Assembly (NCBI RefSeq): GCF_017311415.1
Contig: NZ_JAEKIS010000002.1
Coordinates: 248,001 to 312,000 of the forward strand
Direction of reading: 5' to 3'
Length of the DNA stretch: 64,000 nucleotides
From: Salipiger abyssi
Lineage (GTDB): Bacteria; Pseudomonadota; Alphaproteobacteria; Rhodobacterales; Rhodobacteraceae
Every line of letters starts with the position of its first letter. The first letter of the stretch is position 1. Positions 38,707-47,294 of this stretch are shown here, piece after piece. The notes under the pieces were generated by a model that ran no database searches, was not told the DNA's origin, and worked only from the letters and a program-made list of their open reading frames with translations. Position numbers and translations under genes: made by a program.

Positions 38707-39615
38707 TCAGCCCGGTTCCAATGACGCTTTCGCCTCTTTCAGCAGCCGCGCCGCCTCCGAGCCCTGAATCTTCGCGATATCGTCCTGATATTTCAGGATC
38801 GCCCCCAGCGTGTCCGAGATCACCTCGGGCGAGAGATCGACCACATCCAGCGCCAGCAGGCATTTCGCCCAGTCGATGGTCTCCGCCACGCCCGGCTTCT
38901 TGAAGATATCCTCGGTGCGCAGCGCCTGCACAAAGGCGACGATCTCGCGGCTGAGCTGCTCGGCCAGATGCGGCTCGCGCGCATGCAGGATCTCGACCTC
39001 GCGGGCGAAATCCGGGTAGTCGACCCAGTGATAGAGGCAGCGGCGCTTGAGCGCGTCATGCACCTCGCGCGTGCGGTTCGAAGTCAGCACCACGATGGGC
39101 GGCTCGGGCGCGGTGATCGTGCCGAGCTCGGGGATGGTCACCTGAAAATCGCTGAGCGCCTCCAGCAGAAACGCCTCGAAGGGCTCGTCGGTGCGGTCGA
39201 GCTCGTCGATGAGCAGCACCGGCGCGCCATTCGCATCGGGCCGCATTGCCTGCAAGAGCGGTCGCTCGACCAGATAATCCGGCCCGAACAGCTCTTTCTG
39301 GAGGATCTCACGGTCGGCATCACCCTGCGCTTCCGCCGTGCGGATGGCGATCATCTGGGCGGGAAAGTTCCACTCATAGACCGCGCTCGCCGCGTCCAGC
39401 CCCTCATAGCATTGCAGACGGATCAGCCGGCGCCCCAGCGACGCGGCCAGCGCCTTGGCGATCTCGGTCTTGCCGACGCCGGCCTCGCCTTCGAGAAACA
39501 GCGGGCGGCCGAGCTTTAGCGACAGGAACACGACGGTGGCCAGCGCCCGGCCGCAGACATAGCCCGTCTGCGACAGCATCGCCTGCACATCGTCGATGGA
39601 ATTGGGGTTTTGCAT
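38707..39615 (-). CDS. MoxR-family AAA+ ATPase
   Basis: A 302-residue ATPase of the MoxR type, chaperones that insert metals or assemble protein complexes. Walker A is GEAGVGKTE near residue 43, Walker B is LLIDELDR, sensor 1 is VLTSNRTREV and an arginine finger region follows. The sequence is closest to the CoxD subgroup. These genes normally stand next to a von Willebrand A domain gene (CoxE-like), which is absent here; the next gene downstream is rlmE. The partner must be elsewhere if it exists. Confidence 0.9.
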   Translation of the reverse strand: MQNPNSIDDVQAMLSQTGYVCGRALATVVFLSLKLGRPLFLEGEAGVGKTEIAKALAASLGRRLIRLQCYEGLDAASAVYEWNFPAQMIAIRTAEAQGDADREILQKELFGPDYLVERPLLQAMRPDANGAPVLLIDELDRTDEPFEAFLLEALSDFQVTIPELGTITAPEPPIVVLTSNRTREVHDALKRRCLYHWVDYPDFAREVEILHAREPHLAEQLSREIVAFVQALRTEDIFKKPGVAETIDWAKCLLALDVVDLSPEVISDTLGAILKYQDDIAKIQGSEAARLLKEAKASLEPG

Positions 39616-39817: not shown

Positions 39818-40840
39818 ATGCGCATAACCGCTGTGACATGTGTGAAGAACGAAGGCCCCTTCCTGCTGGAATGGATCGCCTTCAACCGTCTGATCGGCGT
39901 CACGGATTTCCTCATCTATTCAAACGATTGCACCGACGGCACCGACCGGCTGCTCGACGCGCTCGGCGAGTATGGCGTGGTGCATCTGCCGAACCCTGCC
40001 AAGGGGCGCAACTACCAGATGGAGGCGCTGAAACACGCCGCGAAACAGCCCTTGGTGCGTGATGCGGATTGGGTCTGGATCGCCGACGTGGACGAGTTCC
40101 TCAATATCCAAACGGGCGATCACACGATCCCCGCGCTGATCGCGGCCTGCGGCACTCCGCAGGCGATCTCGGTCACCTTCCAGTTCTTCGCCAATGACGG
40201 GATCGAGCGCTTCGAGGACCGCCCGGTGATCGAGCAGTTCACCCGCACCCACAATCCCGATCTATGGTGCGCAGACAGCGCCATCGAAGTCAAAACACTG
40301 ATCCGTAAGGATTTCCCCCTGCAATATTTCGGCGCACACCGGCCGTTTTTTCGCGAGGCCAAAGGGGCCGAGCTGCCCAGCTGGACCGACGGGTCTGGCC
40401 GCCCGGTGCCGCCGAAGTTCCACACCGCCGCCAACACACGCCGCATCCGCCGCTTTCCCGCCGCCGGCGCGCGGCGTTATGCGACGCTCAATCATTATGC
40501 TCTGCGCTCGCTCGACAGCTATCTCGTCAAGAACGACCGTGGCGACGTCAACCGCGAGGGCCGGGCCTTTGACGACAGCTATTGGCGCGAGCGCAACGAC
40601 CGCGCCTGGGAGGAGCGTTCAATCCACCGCTACCTACCCGCGCTTGAGGCGGCTCTGGCAGATATGAAGCGCGGAGAGATCGGCGCGCTGCATGACGAGG
40701 CGGTGCGCCTGCATCTCGAAAAGGTCAATGAACTCAAGAGGAAGACCGCCCATGCGGAGATGTGGAAGCATCTGCACGCGCTGCCGCCCTACCCGCCCGG
40801 CGAACTTGAGATCCGACATGAACTTGGACTGACAACCTAA
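39818..40840 (+). CDS. Glycosyltransferase family 2-like protein (Glyco_tranf_2_4), copy 1
   Basis: A 340-residue putative inverting glycosyltransferase. The start RITAVTCVKNEGPFLLEWIAFNRLIGVTDFLIYSNDCTDGTDRLL is typical of the Glyco_tranf_2_4 family, WIADVDEFLNI is the metal/nucleotide-sugar DxD motif, and NHYALRS later in the chain is conserved. It has no membrane segment and probably acts at the cytoplasmic face. It heads a cassette of five genes; its stop overlaps the next start as TAATG. Confidence 0.9.
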   Translation: MRITAVTCVKNEGPFLLEWIAFNRLIGVTDFLIYSNDCTDGTDRLLDALGEYGVVHLPNPAKGRNYQMEALKHAAKQPLVRDADWVWIADVDEFLNIQTGDHTIPALIAACGTPQAISVTFQFFANDGIERFEDRPVIEQFTRTHNPDLWCADSAIEVKTLIRKDFPLQYFGAHRPFFREAKGAELPSWTDGSGRPVPPKFHTAANTRRIRRFPAAGARRYATLNHYALRSLDSYLVKNDRGDVNREGRAFDDSYWRERNDRAWEERSIHRYLPALEAALADMKRGEIGALHDEAVRLHLEKVNELKRKTAHAEMWKHLHALPPYPPGELEIRHELGLTT

Positions 40841-41472
40841 TGGTTCACATCATAAATCTTGGACTTCCGAAGACCGGAACCACGACGCTGGGCGTGGCTT
40901 TGCAGCGTGCGGGCCTCACGGTGGCGGATTTCAAGCTGCGCCGGGGCAGTTGCCCGGACAAGACCATCGCCGGCAGCTATGTGGCGCGGCAGCTCTATGA
41001 CGGCTATTTCGGCGCTGGAGACCCTTTGGAACATCTCGGCGCGCTGGATGCGCTGAGCGAGATTTCCGTCCTGAACCCAACGCTCTGCCTCTGGCCGCAG
41101 ACCGATTTCGGCCTGATCGAGGCGATCCGCAGCCGCTATCCGGATCTGCGCTTTGTCGCCTCCTGGCGCGATCCGGACGATACCGCCCATTCCATCCTGC
41201 GCTGGTCAGATCTCGGCACGCGGCGGCTGCCCGAGGGCAATATCCCCGGCCTGCCCGCCGGCTATGGCGAGACGCGGCTGCAACGGGCGCAGTGGGTGGC
41301 GCAGCATTACGCCTTCCTGCGCCACATTTTCGCCGGCGATACCCGCTTTCTGGAATATGACACCGCCGATCCGGAGGCGCCGAAAAAGCTCTCCGACTTT
41401 TTGGGGCTGGAGCTTCCGTGGTGGGGAAAAGCGAATGAAAACAGATCCCTGAAAGCACCCGGCTCGGCATGA
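40840..41472 (+). CDS. PAPS-dependent sulfotransferase family protein
   Basis: A 210-residue protein likely to transfer sulfate from PAPS to a sugar or lipid. MVHIINLGLPKTGTTTLGVAL contains an intact 5'-phosphosulfate loop (PKTGTTT), and RFVASWRDPDDTAHSILRW gives the 3'-phosphate-binding RDP element. It is translationally linked to a glycosyltransferase on both sides (TAATG upstream, ATGA downstream). The context points to sulfation of the glycan made by the flanking enzymes; the acceptor is unknown. Confidence 0.88.
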   Translation: MVHIINLGLPKTGTTTLGVALQRAGLTVADFKLRRGSCPDKTIAGSYVARQLYDGYFGAGDPLEHLGALDALSEISVLNPTLCLWPQTDFGLIEAIRSRYPDLRFVASWRDPDDTAHSILRWSDLGTRRLPEGNIPGLPAGYGETRLQRAQWVAQHYAFLRHIFAGDTRFLEYDTADPEAPKKLSDFLGLELPWWGKANENRSLKAPGSA

Positions 41473-43811
41473 GGATCTATGTACATATCGGCCCCGACGC
41501 GACCGTGACCGACCGGCTGCAACGGGTGTTGCAGGCCAAGCGCGACCAGCTCGGCGGTAAGGGTGTGCTCTTTCCCCGCTCGCCCGGCACCAAGAACCAT
41601 ACCCGGCTCTTCATGGCGGTCACCGATCCCGAGGCGGTGGATTCGCTGCGCTTCAACCGGGGTTTCATCGCGCCGGAGAAACAGGCGGCGCTGCGTCAGG
41701 CGGTGGTGACCCAGCTCACTCAGGAGGTGGAGCAGGCCCGGCCCGACACGCTGGTCCTGACCGCGCACCAGCTCGGATCTTCTCTTATATCTCAGAGAGG
41801 AATCAAATCACTACGGGACATTCTTTCACCGATTTCCGAAGACATCCGCATCGTGGCGCATCTCGACGATCCGGCGCGCATGCTGGCCCGGCGCTATGCG
41901 GCGCAGGTGATGGACGGGCGCGCGGCGCCGCTGACACAGGAACTCGGTCTCGCCGATGCGCCCGACTGGTGGCAGTCGGCGCTCGACACACGCCCGGCGG
42001 CAGACCCGCGCGCGGGTCGGTTCCCTGAAACGCAGGGCGCGGTTTTCTGGCTCGATTACAAGCGGTTGCAGAAGGAATGGGAGGCGGTGTTCGGGCCGGG
42101 CTCGGTGATCTTCCGCAGCATTTCCCCGGAGCGGCTCTATGGCGAGGCCACCACCGAAGAGCTGCGCTCCGCCTTCGACATCGCAGACACCATCGGCAAG
42201 GCCGACCCCGTGACGCCGCCAACCGCGCCTTCCGCCGCCTGGCTGGCCCGATGCCGGCAACTCAACGACGTACTGCTGCGCTATCTGGCGCAGCATGAAG
42301 CTGTCCTCCCGCGCCCGCTCTGGCGGAAGTTTCTGAATGAAATCAAAGTGTCCGGCGCGCCAATTGACGCGGGAAGCTTGTCTGCCGTCTCGCAGCGCTT
42401 CGCCAGGGATCTCGCCGCGCTCTGCGCCACCCATCCCGGGCTCGATCCCGATCACCTGACCCCGGATCCGGCCACCGAAGACTGGCAGGAGGCCGACCCG
42501 ACGCGCGGCTTTCGCGCCACGCAATACCTGCTCGCCTTCCGTTGGCGCATCACGCAGGCGAGCAAGCAGGAGCTCGCCGCCAAGACCGCCGATCTTGCAG
42601 CGCTCGACCCGGCGGCAAAGCCCCGAATCGAGAAGACACTGACGCTCTCGCCCTCGGCAAAGGCGCATCTGCCGCCGCAGGCGATCCAGGCGCTGGCGAA
42701 GCTGCAAGGCTCGGTCTTTGCGCCGCATAACCGGCTGGGCCATCTCGATGAGGAGGCCGAGGCCGCGCCATATCCCCCCACCGAGGGCGGCAGCGGCGCC
42801 GTCATCGTCGGCTGCATGAAGAACGAGGCGCCCTATATCGTCGAATGGGTGGCCTATCACCGCGCCATCGGGGTTGATCATTTCCTCATCTATACAAATG
42901 GTTGCGAGGACGGCACGCGCGAGATCCTCACCCGGTTGCAGGAGATGGGCGTGCTCACCCATCGCGACAATGACGACTGGACGGGCAACTCGCCGCAGCA
43001 GCATGCGCTCGACAGCGCGCTGACAGAACCGATGGTCAAGGAGGCCGCATGGATCGCCCATATCGACGTGGATGAGTTCATCAATGTGCGCTGCGGCAAC
43101 GGCACGCTGGAGGATCTGTTTCAGTGCGTGCCCGACGCCACCAATATCGCCATGACCTGGCGGCTCTTCGGCCATAACGGTGTGGCGCGGCTCGAGGACA
43201 AGCTGGTGATCGACCAGTTCGACCGCTGCGCCCCGAAATACTGTCCCAAGCCGCATACGGTCTGGGGCTTCAAGACGCTGTTCCGCAATATTGGCGCCTA
43301 TGGCAAGCTCTCCTGTCATCGCCCGAACAAGCTCTTGCAAGGCTTTGATGACAAAGTGAAATGGGTCAACGGCTCTGGTGCCGACATGACCGGCGAGGCG
43401 CTGCGCAACGGCTGGCGCAGCTCGCGCAAGAGCATCGGCTACGATCTGGTGCAGCTCAACCATTACGCCCTGCGCAGCGCCGAGAGCTTTCTGATCAAAC
43501 GCCAACGCGGCCGCGCGCTGCATGTGGATCGCTCCATCGGGCTCAATTACTGGGTGCGCATGGACTGGACCGGCGCGCGCGATCTCACCATCAAGCGCAA
43601 TATCCCCCGGGTCCGCGCGGAATATGATAGGCTGCTCGCCGATCCCGAGCTGCGCAAATGGCACGATCACGGGCTGGACTGGCACCGCGCCAAGGCCGAC
43701 GCTCTGCATGCGACACCTGAGTTCGAAGAACTCTACCAGCGCGCGCTTGCCCTGCGTTTGACGGACCCCGAACGCGTGGCCTATGCGCTCGCGCTCGATA
43801 TGGAGAGCTGA
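41469..43811 (+). CDS. Fusion of a degenerate sulfotransferase-like domain and a glycosyltransferase
   Basis: A 780-residue two-part protein. The N-terminus (1-400) is patterned like Rhodobacterales sulfotransferases (IYVHIGPDATVTDRLQRVLQAKR, LVLTAHQL, IRIVAHLDDPARMLARRYAAQV), but the P-loop Lys and Thr-Gly-Thr-Thr are replaced, so PAPS binding is doubtful. Residues 440-780 are a Glyco_tranf_2_4 domain (VIVGCMKNEAPYIVEWVAYHRAIGVDHFLIYTNGCEDGT, HIDVDEFINV, LNHYALRSAESF). A stretch of rare AT-rich codons lies at codons 103-125. The first domain may be a scaffold or acceptor binder; that is inference. Confidence 0.85.
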   Translation: MRIYVHIGPDATVTDRLQRVLQAKRDQLGGKGVLFPRSPGTKNHTRLFMAVTDPEAVDSLRFNRGFIAPEKQAALRQAVVTQLTQEVEQARPDTLVLTAHQLGSSLISQRGIKSLRDILSPISEDIRIVAHLDDPARMLARRYAAQVMDGRAAPLTQELGLADAPDWWQSALDTRPAADPRAGRFPETQGAVFWLDYKRLQKEWEAVFGPGSVIFRSISPERLYGEATTEELRSAFDIADTIGKADPVTPPTAPSAAWLARCRQLNDVLLRYLAQHEAVLPRPLWRKFLNEIKVSGAPIDAGSLSAVSQRFARDLAALCATHPGLDPDHLTPDPATEDWQEADPTRGFRATQYLLAFRWRITQASKQELAAKTADLAALDPAAKPRIEKTLTLSPSAKAHLPPQAIQALAKLQGSVFAPHNRLGHLDEEAEAAPYPPTEGGSGAVIVGCMKNEAPYIVEWVAYHRAIGVDHFLIYTNGCEDGTREILTRLQEMGVLTHRDNDDWTGNSPQQHALDSALTEPMVKEAAWIAHIDVDEFINVRCGNGTLEDLFQCVPDATNIAMTWRLFGHNGVARLEDKLVIDQFDRCAPKYCPKPHTVWGFKTLFRNIGAYGKLSCHRPNKLLQGFDDKVKWVNGSGADMTGEALRNGWRSSRKSIGYDLVQLNHYALRSAESFLIKRQRGRALHVDRSIGLNYWVRMDWTGARDLTIKRNIPRVRAEYDRLLADPELRKWHDHGLDWHRAKADALHATPEFEELYQRALALRLTDPERVAYALALDMES

Positions 43812-43881
43812 CCATGGGCGAGGCGCGACAGGCCCATCCCGGCACGGGGGCCGGGGCGGGTTTCCCGAAGGCAGGACTGCC

Positions 43882-44952
43882 ATGAGCATCACCGCGATTC
43901 TCTGTGTGCGCAACGAGGGCGCCTTTCTGCTCGACTGGCTGGCGCATCACCTGATCTGCGGCATCGACCATGTGGTGGCGCTCTCGAACGATTGCGCCGA
44001 CGGCACCGACGCGCTGCTCGACCGGCTTGCCGAGATGGGCCATGTCACCCATATCCGCAACGACGGCCCCTACGATCAGGGCGGCATCCAGTTCACCGGG
44101 CTGAAACGCGCGGATCGTTGCGACGCCGTGCGCGCCGCCAAGTGGCTGCTGCCGCTCGATGTGGACGAGTTCGTCAATGTGCATGTGGGCGGGCGCACGC
44201 TGCCCGACCTCATCGCCGCCCTGCCCGAAGCCGATGCCATCACGCTCACCTGGCGGCTCTTTGGCAATGCCGGTGTGCTTCGCTATAAGGACAGCCCCAT
44301 CCCCGAGCAGTTCACCCGCGCCGCGCCGGTGCGCATGGTCTGGCCCTGGCGCTCGGCGATGTTCAAGACGCTCTACCGCAACAATGGCATCTACCGGAAA
44401 CTCGGCGTGCATCGGCCGCGCAACCCCGATCCGGCGCGTGTGAGCGGCGCGCGCTGGTTCGATGGCGAGGGGCGCGCGCTCGACGCGCAGTTCCGCACGC
44501 GGCGGATTTTCTCCAATTACGGCCGCTCGAACTATGCGCTTGCGCAGCTCAATCACTATCCGCTGGGCGCGATGGAGAGCTATGTGCTCAAGGCCGACCG
44601 GGGCCGCGCCGTGCATTCCGAGCATATGCTGGGGCTGGATTACTGGGTGGAGCGCAATTTCAACAGCGACGAAGACCGCTCGATCCTGGCGCTGGCACAG
44701 CAGGTGGCAGAGCAGCGCGCGGCGCTGGCAGCGGATCCACGGCTTGCAGAGCTGCACGCCGCCGCCGTCGATTGGCGCAAGGCGCGGTTCGAGGCGCTGA
44801 TGCTGGAGGAGCCCTATCGCGCGCTGATGGGCCGGCTTATGATGACGCCGCCAAGCCGGCCGCTGACGCCGCAGGGAGCGCGGCTTTTGCATGGGTATGC
44901 CAACAGCGCGCGCGCATCCTCCTACGGGGACACCGGCAAGGGCCATGAATGA
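43882..44952 (+). CDS. Glycosyltransferase family 2-like protein, copy 3
   Basis: A 356-residue glycosyltransferase related to the two preceding ones: SITAILCVRNEGAFLLDWLAHHLICGIDHVVALSNDCADGTDALLDRL, LPLDVDEFVNVHVGG as the DxD region and LNHYPLGAMESYVLKADRGRAVH. It carries RKLGVHRPRNPDP like family members with a basic pocket. The ATG at 43882 was chosen because the family N-terminus begins there; the ribosome binding site is weak (GGCAGGAC). A 70-nt spacer separates it from the fusion gene, and it ends the cassette. Confidence 0.9.
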   Translation: MSITAILCVRNEGAFLLDWLAHHLICGIDHVVALSNDCADGTDALLDRLAEMGHVTHIRNDGPYDQGGIQFTGLKRADRCDAVRAAKWLLPLDVDEFVNVHVGGRTLPDLIAALPEADAITLTWRLFGNAGVLRYKDSPIPEQFTRAAPVRMVWPWRSAMFKTLYRNNGIYRKLGVHRPRNPDPARVSGARWFDGEGRALDAQFRTRRIFSNYGRSNYALAQLNHYPLGAMESYVLKADRGRAVHSEHMLGLDYWVERNFNSDEDRSILALAQQVAEQRAALAADPRLAELHAAAVDWRKARFEALMLEEPYRALMGRLMMTPPSRPLTPQGARLLHGYANSARASSYGDTGKGHE

Positions 44953-45113: not shown

Positions 45114-46058
45114 ATGCAGGATCAGACAGACCTTTCAGCGGTCGATCTTACCGGGCTTCAGCGCGGCCAGTGGATCAAGGCGATCTCGGATATCGGCGAG
45201 GCGGAAGGATTCTCCGAACCGCTCGGCAAACGCCATCAGGCGGTCTTTGTCGAACGCGGCGACACGCTTCTGGTGAGCTTCGAGTCCCTGCCCGGCATCG
45301 AAGCACTGTCGGAGACCGCCACCCCTCTGGGCTGGGAATTGGCCAATACCAAGGGTTGGTCCTCGCTCGCGGTGATCTCTGCCGGCGACACCTGGTTTCG
45401 CGATGCGCTGGTCTATGACTTCTTCGACCAGCTGCTCGATGACGGCTTTTTCGACGATTTCGAAACCATCGTGTTCTATGGCGCCGGCCCCTGCGGCTAT
45501 GCCGCCGGCGCCTATTCGGTGACCGCCCCCGGCGCGCGGGTGGTGATGCTCCAGCCGCAGGCCACGCTCGACCCGCGCATCACCGACTGGGACGACCGTT
45601 TCGCCGATATGCGACGGCTGAATTTCACCGCGCGCTACGGCTATGCGCCCGACATGCTCGATGCTGCGCAGCAGGGCTATGTGCTCTTCGATCCGCGCGA
45701 ACGGCTCGACGCGATGCATTCGGCGCTGTTCGAGCGCCGCAACGTGACCCGCTTCCGCGTGCCCTTTATGGGCAGCGCACTTCAGGGGGATCTGCTGGAT
45801 CTCGGGCTCTTCGTGCCGATTCTCGAAGCCGCCGCCGAAGACAGGCTCGACGCGCTCAGTTTCGCGCGGATGCTGCGCAAGCGCCGCGATCATACGCCCT
45901 ATCTCCGCAAACTGCTCGCGCGGGTCGAGGGCGATGGCCGGCAGGCACTGGCCGAGGCGCTCTGTGCCAATGTCACCGCGCGCCTCGATGCGCCGCGCTT
46001 TGCCCGGCATCTCCAGGCGCTCCGAGCGGGCCACGCCAAGGCAAAGGCCGAGGCCTGA
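45114..46058 (+). CDS. Conserved hypothetical with hydrolase-like elbow, often labelled PAPS reductase
   Basis: A 314-residue protein resembling Roseobacter proteins that are commonly labelled phosphoadenosine phosphosulfate reductase, from my memory. It lacks the CysH signature ECGIH. The segment VFYGAGPCGYAAGAYS looks like an alpha/beta-hydrolase nucleophile elbow (family form GxSxGGY), but the Ser position is Gly, with Cys following. QPQATLDPRITDWDDRF and a helical C-terminus complete it. It sits 161 nt after the glycosyltransferase cassette on the same strand. Function unknown; a surface-glycan role is inferred from context. Confidence 0.65.
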   Translation: MQDQTDLSAVDLTGLQRGQWIKAISDIGEAEGFSEPLGKRHQAVFVERGDTLLVSFESLPGIEALSETATPLGWELANTKGWSSLAVISAGDTWFRDALVYDFFDQLLDDGFFDDFETIVFYGAGPCGYAAGAYSVTAPGARVVMLQPQATLDPRITDWDDRFADMRRLNFTARYGYAPDMLDAAQQGYVLFDPRERLDAMHSALFERRNVTRFRVPFMGSALQGDLLDLGLFVPILEAAAEDRLDALSFARMLRKRRDHTPYLRKLLARVEGDGRQALAEALCANVTARLDAPRFARHLQALRAGHAKAKAEA

Positions 46059-46064
46059 TCGGTC

Positions 46065-46832
46065 TCAGTCGGTGATCGCGCGCAGCGCCCGCACCCGGGC
46101 GGGGGGAATCGCCGCGACCTCGACGCCGGTGAAGACATGCAGCGTGTTCATCGCGCGATCCACCACCGCGTGGTCGCTGACCCAGCCGCCCATGCCCAGA
46201 TAAGTGCGCAGCAGCGGCGGAATCAGCTTCATCGCCGCGCGCGCATCCGCGCCCTGCTCGGGGAATCGCACCCGCTCACGCGCCTTTTCGCCCACCCGCC
46301 AGCGCTCCGGCGCCGCGTGACGGGCGCGCAGATGCGCGAAGGCGGCGGCATAGCGCGCCGGATCGGTGCCCTGAAAGCTGGCGCAGCCGAAGAGCAGCTT
46401 TGCCCCGCCCGAATCCACCAGCCCGGTGATCGCACCCCAGGCCAGCCTCAGGATATCGGGATCGCTGGGGCCGGGACGGATGCAAAAGCGCCCGAGCTCA
46501 AGCATCGGCCCGCCGAACCCGTCGAGCCGGCTCAGATCGTAATATTGCGCCGCATAGCTCTCGGTGATCGACGCTCCGTCCTCCAGCCAGAGATAGCGGT
46601 AACAGGCGAGCGGCGCGCCACCGGCGGCGTCCTCGACCAGCACATGCCGGCAGAGCGGATCGAAGCCATCGGCATCGCTGGGGCCGGTTTCGCCGAAAAA
46701 CGCCCGCCCGCGCAGCGCCTGCGCGGCGGCCAGATCGGCGTCGCTCACAGCCAGCCGGGCGCGATAGCGCCCGCGCCGCAACAGGATATCCGGCCCTTCC
46801 CCCGCGGCGCCACTGTCCTGCCGGGGGCTCAT
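46065..46832 (-). CDS. olsB: Ornithine-acyl-ACP N-acyltransferase OlsB-like
   Basis: A 255-residue GNAT-fold enzyme that makes lyso-ornithine lipid from ornithine and 3-hydroxyacyl-ACP. The sequence RYRARLAVSDADLAAAQALR, CRHVLVEDAAGG, SYAAQYYDLSRLDGFGGPMLELGRFCIRPG and IPPLLRTYLGMGGWVSDHAVVDRAMNTLHVFTGVEV closely follows the OlsB pattern. The partner acyltransferase gene olsA, usually adjacent, is not next to it here. It lies 9 nt upstream of nothing obvious and converges with the preceding gene; bamE precedes it on the same strand. Confidence 0.9.
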   Translation of the reverse strand: MSPRQDSGAAGEGPDILLRRGRYRARLAVSDADLAAAQALRGRAFFGETGPSDADGFDPLCRHVLVEDAAGGAPLACYRYLWLEDGASITESYAAQYYDLSRLDGFGGPMLELGRFCIRPGPSDPDILRLAWGAITGLVDSGGAKLLFGCASFQGTDPARYAAAFAHLRARHAAPERWRVGEKARERVRFPEQGADARAAMKLIPPLLRTYLGMGGWVSDHAVVDRAMNTLHVFTGVEVAAIPPARVRALRAITD

Positions 46833-46841
46833 GTCCCGGTC

Positions 46842-47294
46842 CTACTGTTCCATGAAATCGCCGAGCGCCAGCCCGCCGATATTGCCGAAGAGTTTGCGGA
46901 TGAAGCTCAGTTCGCCATCGGTGGTGCGGGTGACGCGACGCGACAGCGGCACGACATTGCCGTCTTCGAGACCGTAGCGCGCGATATTATCGACCACGCC
47001 CGCCTCGTCGAAGGTGATCGCCAGCACCTGCCGGTCGACGACTTCCGGCGCTTTCCAGGCGAACTGCCGCATCTCGGATTCGATATAGTAGAAGCCGCCC
47101 TCGTTCAGAACGCCCGAGGTGGTCGGCACGCCGATCACATCCTCGACGGTGCCCCGGGTATCGACCCCGGGCACGATCTGCTGAAGCTCGTCTTCGGAAG
47201 GGGCATAGCCGTGGCTCCGGTACTGCGCCGTGCAGGCGGTCAGCGCCAGCACGGCCAGCATCGCCGCCATCACTCGTCTTCCGGGTATTGCCAT
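46842..47294 (-). CDS. bamE: Outer-membrane assembly lipoprotein BamE (SmpA/OmlA)
   Basis: A 150-residue lipoprotein of the Bam complex, which inserts beta-barrel proteins into the outer membrane. The signal ends in LALTACTAQ, so Cys21 is lipidated. The SmpA core shows HGYAPSEDELQQIVPGVDTRGTVEDVIGVPTT and GGFYYIESEMRQFAWKAPEVVDRQVLAITFD. olsB follows 9 nt later on the same strand. It is divergent from yceD, which is the usual arrangement in this order. Confidence 0.92.
   Translation of the reverse strand: MAIPGRRVMAAMLAVLALTACTAQYRSHGYAPSEDELQQIVPGVDTRGTVEDVIGVPTTSGVLNEGGFYYIESEMRQFAWKAPEVVDRQVLAITFDEAGVVDNIARYGLEDGNVVPLSRRVTRTTDGELSFIRKLFGNIGGLALGDFMEQ

Follow-up and report, generated by a model that had tools for sequence, protein, structure and literature searches.

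The window analysed here is a stretch of 64,000 nucleotides from Salipiger abyssi (contig NZ_JAEKIS010000002.1, positions 248,001 to 312,000; its genome is called G000 below). It carries a cassette of five genes, A to E, combining three glycosyltransferases and a sulfotransferase with two enzyme folds that have apparently lost their catalytic residues. With a probability of roughly 0.6, these genes encode soluble cytoplasmic enzymes that build a sulfated and, in many relatives, probably also methylated oligosaccharide, with the apparently dead N-terminus of C and the protein E probably acting as holders. Gene content, domains, kept and lost motifs, and co-inheritance are the direct basis of this reading. 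The parts of the locus are as follows.

39818-40840, forward strand: gene A, glycosyltransferase with PF13704 and also PF01697 (GT92).
40840-41472, forward strand: gene B, PAPS-type (3'-phosphoadenosine 5'-phosphosulfate) sulfotransferase with PF17784 (Sulfotransfer_4).
41469-42770, forward strand: N-terminal part of gene C, sulfotransferase fold without the P-loop lysine, a putative pseudo-sulfotransferase.
42771-43811, forward strand: C-terminal part of gene C, glycosyltransferase with PF13704, GT92-like.
43812-43881, forward strand: gap between C and D, a deletion scar where relatives have an FkbM-type methyltransferase gene, X.
43882-44952, forward strand: gene D, glycosyltransferase with PF13704, its start set from homologues.
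45114-46058, forward strand: gene E, alpha/beta hydrolase with the nucleophile Ser and the catalytic His lost.

The original prediction, made from the letters of the DNA, described three Glyco_tranf_2_4 (PF13704) enzymes and an intact PAPS sulfotransferase, with a fusion protein in the middle, and the Pfam scan agrees with it. PF13704 scored 78.9 bits in A, 82.3 in C, which is the fusion, and 69.2 in D against a curated cut-off of 27.5, and PF17784 scored 33.0 bits in B (cut-off 22.8). PF01697 was also above its cut-off in A (37.9 bits) and C (48.0 bits), and no NCBIfam profile matched any of the proteins A to E. The genes had been described as linked by overlaps, which holds for the A-B junction (TAATG) and the B-C junction (ATGA) but not for C and D, which are separated by 70 bp. 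D homologues begin at 43882, and the upstream in-frame start of the D open reading frame (ORF), an ATG at 43783, is unsupported by them. Hydropathy is low in all five proteins (top 19-residue mean of 1.37), and judged by it they look soluble.

The cassette is conserved in Rhodobacteraceae. A search with C over one genome per species (84,980 species, including 19 genomes of the same genus as G000) returned 264 related stretches. The best 80 were kept, and locus counts are restricted to those whose contig extends far enough. The best named relatives of protein C belong to Salipiger species. In these loci A lies upstream of C in 79/79, D downstream in 77/77 and E in 73/77, and B is present in 76/80 (missing in L036, L053, L057 and L071). 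The A-B overlap is 4 bp in 65 of 75 loci and the B-C overlap is 1 or 4 bp in 72 of 76, so that the gene order, whose presence in other genomes had been proposed as a check, is retained together with the same-strand overlaps.

Since the 80 loci were picked by similarity to C, a sample of 149 Rhodobacteraceae genomes was used as a fairer test, and A and C orthologues were found in the identical 49 of them. For A, 51 genomes matched at E <= 1e-70; two of them, G046 and G133, were taken for paralogues at 43-44% identity and removed, and the lowest match kept was 56%. For C, full-length or two-piece matches were counted together with half-length matches of at least 60% identity (G056 and G118, 60-61%); the next half-length match, with 54%, was excluded as a paralogue, and without G056 and G118 C would be present in 47 of the 49 genomes of A. 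Both genes are adjacent in 46 of the 49, lie on different contigs in G069 and G118, and in G056 the matched second half of C is 1.7 kb from A with B in between. In a sample of the class (289 genomes), C matches at <=1e-90 appeared in three genomes, all of them Rhodobacteraceae.

Independent occurrence of the genes in relatives had been named as something that would speak against the original prediction. It is not observed for A and C, whereas the other genes show it to different degrees. B is in 46 of the 49 cassette genomes (missing in G027, G058 and G110), sits away from the cassette in G005, G041, G044 and G138, and has a relative of 42% in G046, which has no cassette. D is present in 45 of the 49 and in 18 more genomes that have no A/C orthologues. 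For E or E-like genes the counts are 43 of the 49 and 65 of the 100 lacking A/C, and at 1e-30 these take in Ser-bearing paralogues.

Concerning the sulfotransferase, B has the P-loop GLPK[ST]G[ST][ST] in 76/76 orthologues and the motif R-x7-S[MI] in 75/76, and R110 and S118 are invariant in a 45-row alignment. The P-loop and the R...S residues of sulfotransferases bind PAPS. B is thus like the PAPS sulfotransferases (PF17784; fold relatives 3rnl and 1nst) in its family match, P-loop and R...S motif. An APS (adenosine 5'-phosphosulfate) kinase gene is present in G000, so PAPS can be made there. A glycan-modifying cassette with a PAPS-type sulfotransferase is therefore well supported by the P-loop of B and this kinase gene. 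In G005 and G044 the displaced B has 522-533 residues, and the beginning of its second half resembles that of another sulfotransferase (L184:4337-5938 and L185:3198-4766); a Pfam scan of this second half in G005 gave no match.

The three glycosyltransferases also keep their motifs. DVDEF is present in 79/79 orthologues of A (78 by pattern and L082 by eye) and in 80/80 of C, and D[VIAM]DE[FY] in 77/77 of D (71 by pattern and 6 by eye). The AlphaFold2 model of C (predicted local distance difference test, pLDDT, 86.6; predicted template modelling score, pTM, 0.58) places residues 441-724 on the plant galactan synthase GalS1 (8d3t), a GT92 enzyme, with Z 17.0 and a root-mean-square deviation (rmsd) of 3.0 over 223 aligned residues. 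The cassette enzymes share with GT92 the fold of this half of C and the PF01697 matches of A and C. They differ in being bacterial, soluble by hydropathy and present in three copies per operon, with the C copy fused to a sulfotransferase-fold domain and D under the PF01697 cut-off. The sugar donors would probably be uridine diphosphate (UDP) sugars, by analogy with the GT92-like fold and because UDP-glucose dehydrogenase-type and epimerase genes lie on the flanks of the related cluster L166.

The N-terminal ~430 residues of C had no Pfam match, and Pfam gave one weak row only for their relatives. In the model, residues 1-332 match the bacterial sulfotransferase 3rnl (Z 14.9, rmsd 4.0, 237 aligned; Foldseek alone puts 3rnl 26th, with E 2.0e-3) and 1nst, the sulfotransferase domain of the human heparan sulfate N-deacetylase/N-sulfotransferase (Z 14.1, rmsd 3.9, 230 aligned). 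The fold is therefore like that of PAPS sulfotransferases, but the P-loop lysine is absent in 80/80 orthologues, as also seen in a 45-row alignment of C, and the domain is fused to a glycosyltransferase. The HIG start is retained. A counterpart of the R...S pair of B was not assignable in the C alignment. Regarding the modelled fold and the lost lysine, the N-terminus of C is probably a pseudo-sulfotransferase.

E belongs with the cassette, which goes beyond the original prediction. Neither Pfam nor NCBIfam gave a match for it, and searches of the PDB by sequence with profiles of C, E and B returned a single non-significant row, for E. Its model (pLDDT 94.4) has an alpha/beta hydrolase fold. 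Among 1000 realigned chains, the top one is Gap2, a member of the glycosylation-associated Gap123 complex (Z 15.0, rmsd 3.5, 210 aligned) and the second is the meningococcal capsule O-acetyltransferase CsaC (Z 13.6, rmsd 4.1, 199 aligned), Gap2 and CsaC forming the entry pair 6oyc/6yuo. Antigen 85 and esterases follow close behind at Z 13.3 and lower; as many proteins have this fold and differences within one Z unit count as ties, the likeness to Gap2 and CsaC is a lead and not a family assignment. Besides the fold, E resembles Gap2/Asp2 and CsaC in its coupling to glycosyltransferases, by position in the case of E and by fusion in the case of E-like domains, which are fused to a glycosyltransferase domain in L149 and L150.

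The difference lies in the active site. With sites set by alignment to paralogues, E has Gly at the elbow in place of the nucleophile Ser and no His at the aligned catalytic site in 42 of 44 aligned proteins, the two exceptions being longer paralogues from L165 and L166. The elbow Gly is present in 73/73 kept loci. Eight E-like proteins or domains of related clusters retain both Ser and His, and the elbow was unreadable in four further rows. Six E-bearing genomes without the cassette, chosen by hand (L172-L177), also carry E copies without the nucleophile Ser, so that the loss of Ser in E is older than the cassette or independent of it.

The likeness to Gap2 raises the possibility that the cassette glycosylates and sulfates a cytoplasmic protein in the manner of the streptococcal system for serine-rich-repeat adhesins, and that E takes the part of Asp2. 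Asp2 O-acetylates N-acetylglucosamine on an intracellularly glycosylated protein and also takes part in transport, and its catalytic-site mutants still support adhesin export (PMC7948813, PMC5578698). This precedent, the fold match of E and the soluble appearance of the cassette proteins would fit such a system, but a substrate protein, SecA2/SecY2 and relatives of Asp1/Asp3 did not turn up, no search being aimed at these, and flagellin, the obvious candidate protein, shows no link to the cassette, which makes this explanation decidedly unlikely. Flagellin was also considered as a required acceptor. It is present in 44 of the 49 cassette genomes and in 81 of the 100 others (p 0.24 by Fisher's test, with no correction for descent), and since five cassette genomes are without it, it is not required.

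The set is nested, as E alone, D-E and A-B-C-(X)-D-E. Of the 18 genomes that have D without A/C, 16 have E close behind D on the same strand (exceptions, G040 and G124), and some of these genomes carry a C-like paralogue nearby (for example, L153 and L165). In L172-L177, E lies before a pyrC-like gene in five, as in many cassette-bearing relatives, and an AAA gene is upstream in four. G166, of the same genus (L182:3353-6863), keeps the AAA gene, E and the glsB-like and bamE-like genes, with only a fragment of A (128 residues matched) between E and the AAA gene. These genomes indicate that the block can be lost while E stays and that D-E makes up a smaller unit; of the genes at the locus, E has probably been there longest.

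In the related clusters (L149, L150, L165 and L166), PF13704 glycosyltransferases are arranged differently with E-like genes, sulfotransferase-like genes and large fusion proteins that reach 1742 residues; Pfam gave nothing on the sulfotransferase-like neighbours. It could be argued that these are separate glycan enzymes held together by descent and not one pathway, given that B can be lost or displaced, that X is found in only a part of the loci and that E and D-E exist without A/C. This is highly improbable, as A and C are in the same 49 of the 149 genomes with their same-strand overlaps retained, and PF13704, E-like and, in some, methyltransferase or sulfotransferase-like genes recur together in those four clusters.

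The gap between C and D reflects the loss of a further gene. In 51 of 77 kept loci C and D are separated by an ORF, X, of ~230 residues, and the sole copy scanned (L011) matched the FkbM methyltransferase family PF05050 with 37.3 bits against a cut-off of 22.7. In the other 26 loci the C-D gap is -1 to 42 bp. The sister genome G149, with a C 94% identical to that of the window, has X followed by a 114-bp spacer before D. The gap in the window retains at most a few bases around the X start codon plus a stretch that matches this spacer (28/33 nt identical; its score of 46 exceeds the 28 obtained against X itself and the <=37 reached by 300 shuffles). The gap had also been considered a leftover of the X end (an FPKA-like peptide), which is ruled out by the match of its 3' part to the spacer upstream of D in G149. 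One X query found the gene in G149 and G088 and not in G000; absent from all of G000 by that query, X was deleted and not moved. The relatives share an FkbM-type methyltransferase with known FkbM systems, and the window genome differs by its deletion.

Considering this gene set, we infer the sugar donors, the order of the steps, the acceptor, a cell-surface destination and the scaffold role. A, C and D would transfer a few sugars stepwise, probably from UDP-sugars, onto an acceptor already in the cytoplasm, and B would then sulfate the product with PAPS as the donor. X would probably O-methylate it in many relatives, a step lost from the window genome. The N-terminus of C and E, transferase folds without catalytic residues, would probably bind the acceptor or hold the enzymes together. 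A more elaborate version can be proposed, rather tentatively and as an unlikely one, in which an assembly complex contains both pseudo-enzymes: the dead sulfotransferase domain would hold the acceptor on the GT92-like enzyme, the dead Asp2-like hydrolase would be a general scaffold serving other glycosyltransferase sets too, and the product would be a sulfated, variably O-methylated oligosaccharide on an undescribed protein or lipid.

Another explanation would make the cassette an accessory arm of a larger sulfated polysaccharide that is exported (exopolysaccharide or capsule) and whose polymerase and exporter are encoded elsewhere in the genome. A second sugar locus of G000 (L178; contig C1, 230-243 kb), which has the strongest PF13704 match of the genome, makes such a link possible, as it also contains PF00535 and PF00534 glycosyltransferases, a PF00483 nucleotidyltransferase, a PF01370 epimerase and a Sulfotransfer_2 protein. 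The sugar-nucleotide genes flanking L166 point in the same direction. Nevertheless, this seems improbable, since neither a polymerase nor an exporter gene was recognised next to the cassette, in the window or in the opened neighbourhoods, whose genes were for the most part identified by eye. The ORFs at 36-49 kb of the window included none recognised as a polymerase, flippase or exporter, the Pfam scan there covering seven proteins only.

Several points weigh against the synthesis of a short oligosaccharide by soluble enzymes with two holders. The chemistry, from substrate to acceptor and product, is deduced from genes. Sulfation is not strictly coupled to the glycosyltransferases, as 3 of the 49 cassette genomes have no B and 4 have it displaced. 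Many genomes that lack the cassette still have E or E-like genes (65 of 100), and 6 of the 49 with the cassette lack them. Moreover, the alpha/beta hydrolase fold of E is widespread and Gap2 is ahead by 1.4 Z units only, and the PF01697 score of D is 20.9 bits against a cut-off of 23.

The original prediction of a sulfated-glycan cassette is thus partly supported, being right in kind and incomplete in content, as E, the degenerate sulfotransferase fold in C and the lost methyltransferase were missed. The product it proposed, a short decoration on an existing surface glycan or glycolipid, is a candidate. The cassette is a glycosyltransferase-sulfotransferase set that has two apparently dead enzymes among its conserved parts. 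In open-licence PubMed Central text, no description was found of this gene set in roseobacters or Rhodobacteraceae, and the sulfated-glycan genes of heterotrophic marine bacteria are little described there. The set is small and found in roughly one in three of the Rhodobacteraceae genomes sampled, and its natural reduced versions (E alone, D-E, without B and without X) offer a comparison series for assigning each step. If true, two unrelated folds of a single gene set that have both lost their catalytic residues would be a testable case of pseudo-enzymes organising glycan assembly.

The cassette is flanked by the following genes.

38707-39615, reverse strand: AAA ATPase gene, divergent, MadB-like by NCBIfam and below the cut-off.
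46065-46832 and 46842-47294, both reverse strand: OlsB-like acyltransferase gene (131.3 bits, below the NCBIfam cut-off of 350) and neighbouring bamE-like gene.

The divergent AAA ATPase gene is upstream of the cassette in 78 of 79 kept loci. In several relatives a CoxE-like VWA gene comes after it (L017 was scanned), and in the window this gene does not adjoin it. In most of the other opened loci, E is followed by what we take from sequence to be pyrC-, pyrE- and dnaB-like genes. The glsB-like, bamE-like, yceD-like and plsX-like neighbours were considered as functional evidence and rejected, since they are in 6 of the 80 kept loci only (L011-L014, L031 and L055). The OlsB-like gene beside the bamE-like gene is probably glsB, the glutamine-lipid gene, because glsB holds the same position in Ruegeria pomeroyi (PMC6298996). 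Finally, gene A of L013 (Salipiger bermudensis HTCC2601) matches in two pieces, unlike that of L012 and L014, which reflects either a frameshift or an assembly error.

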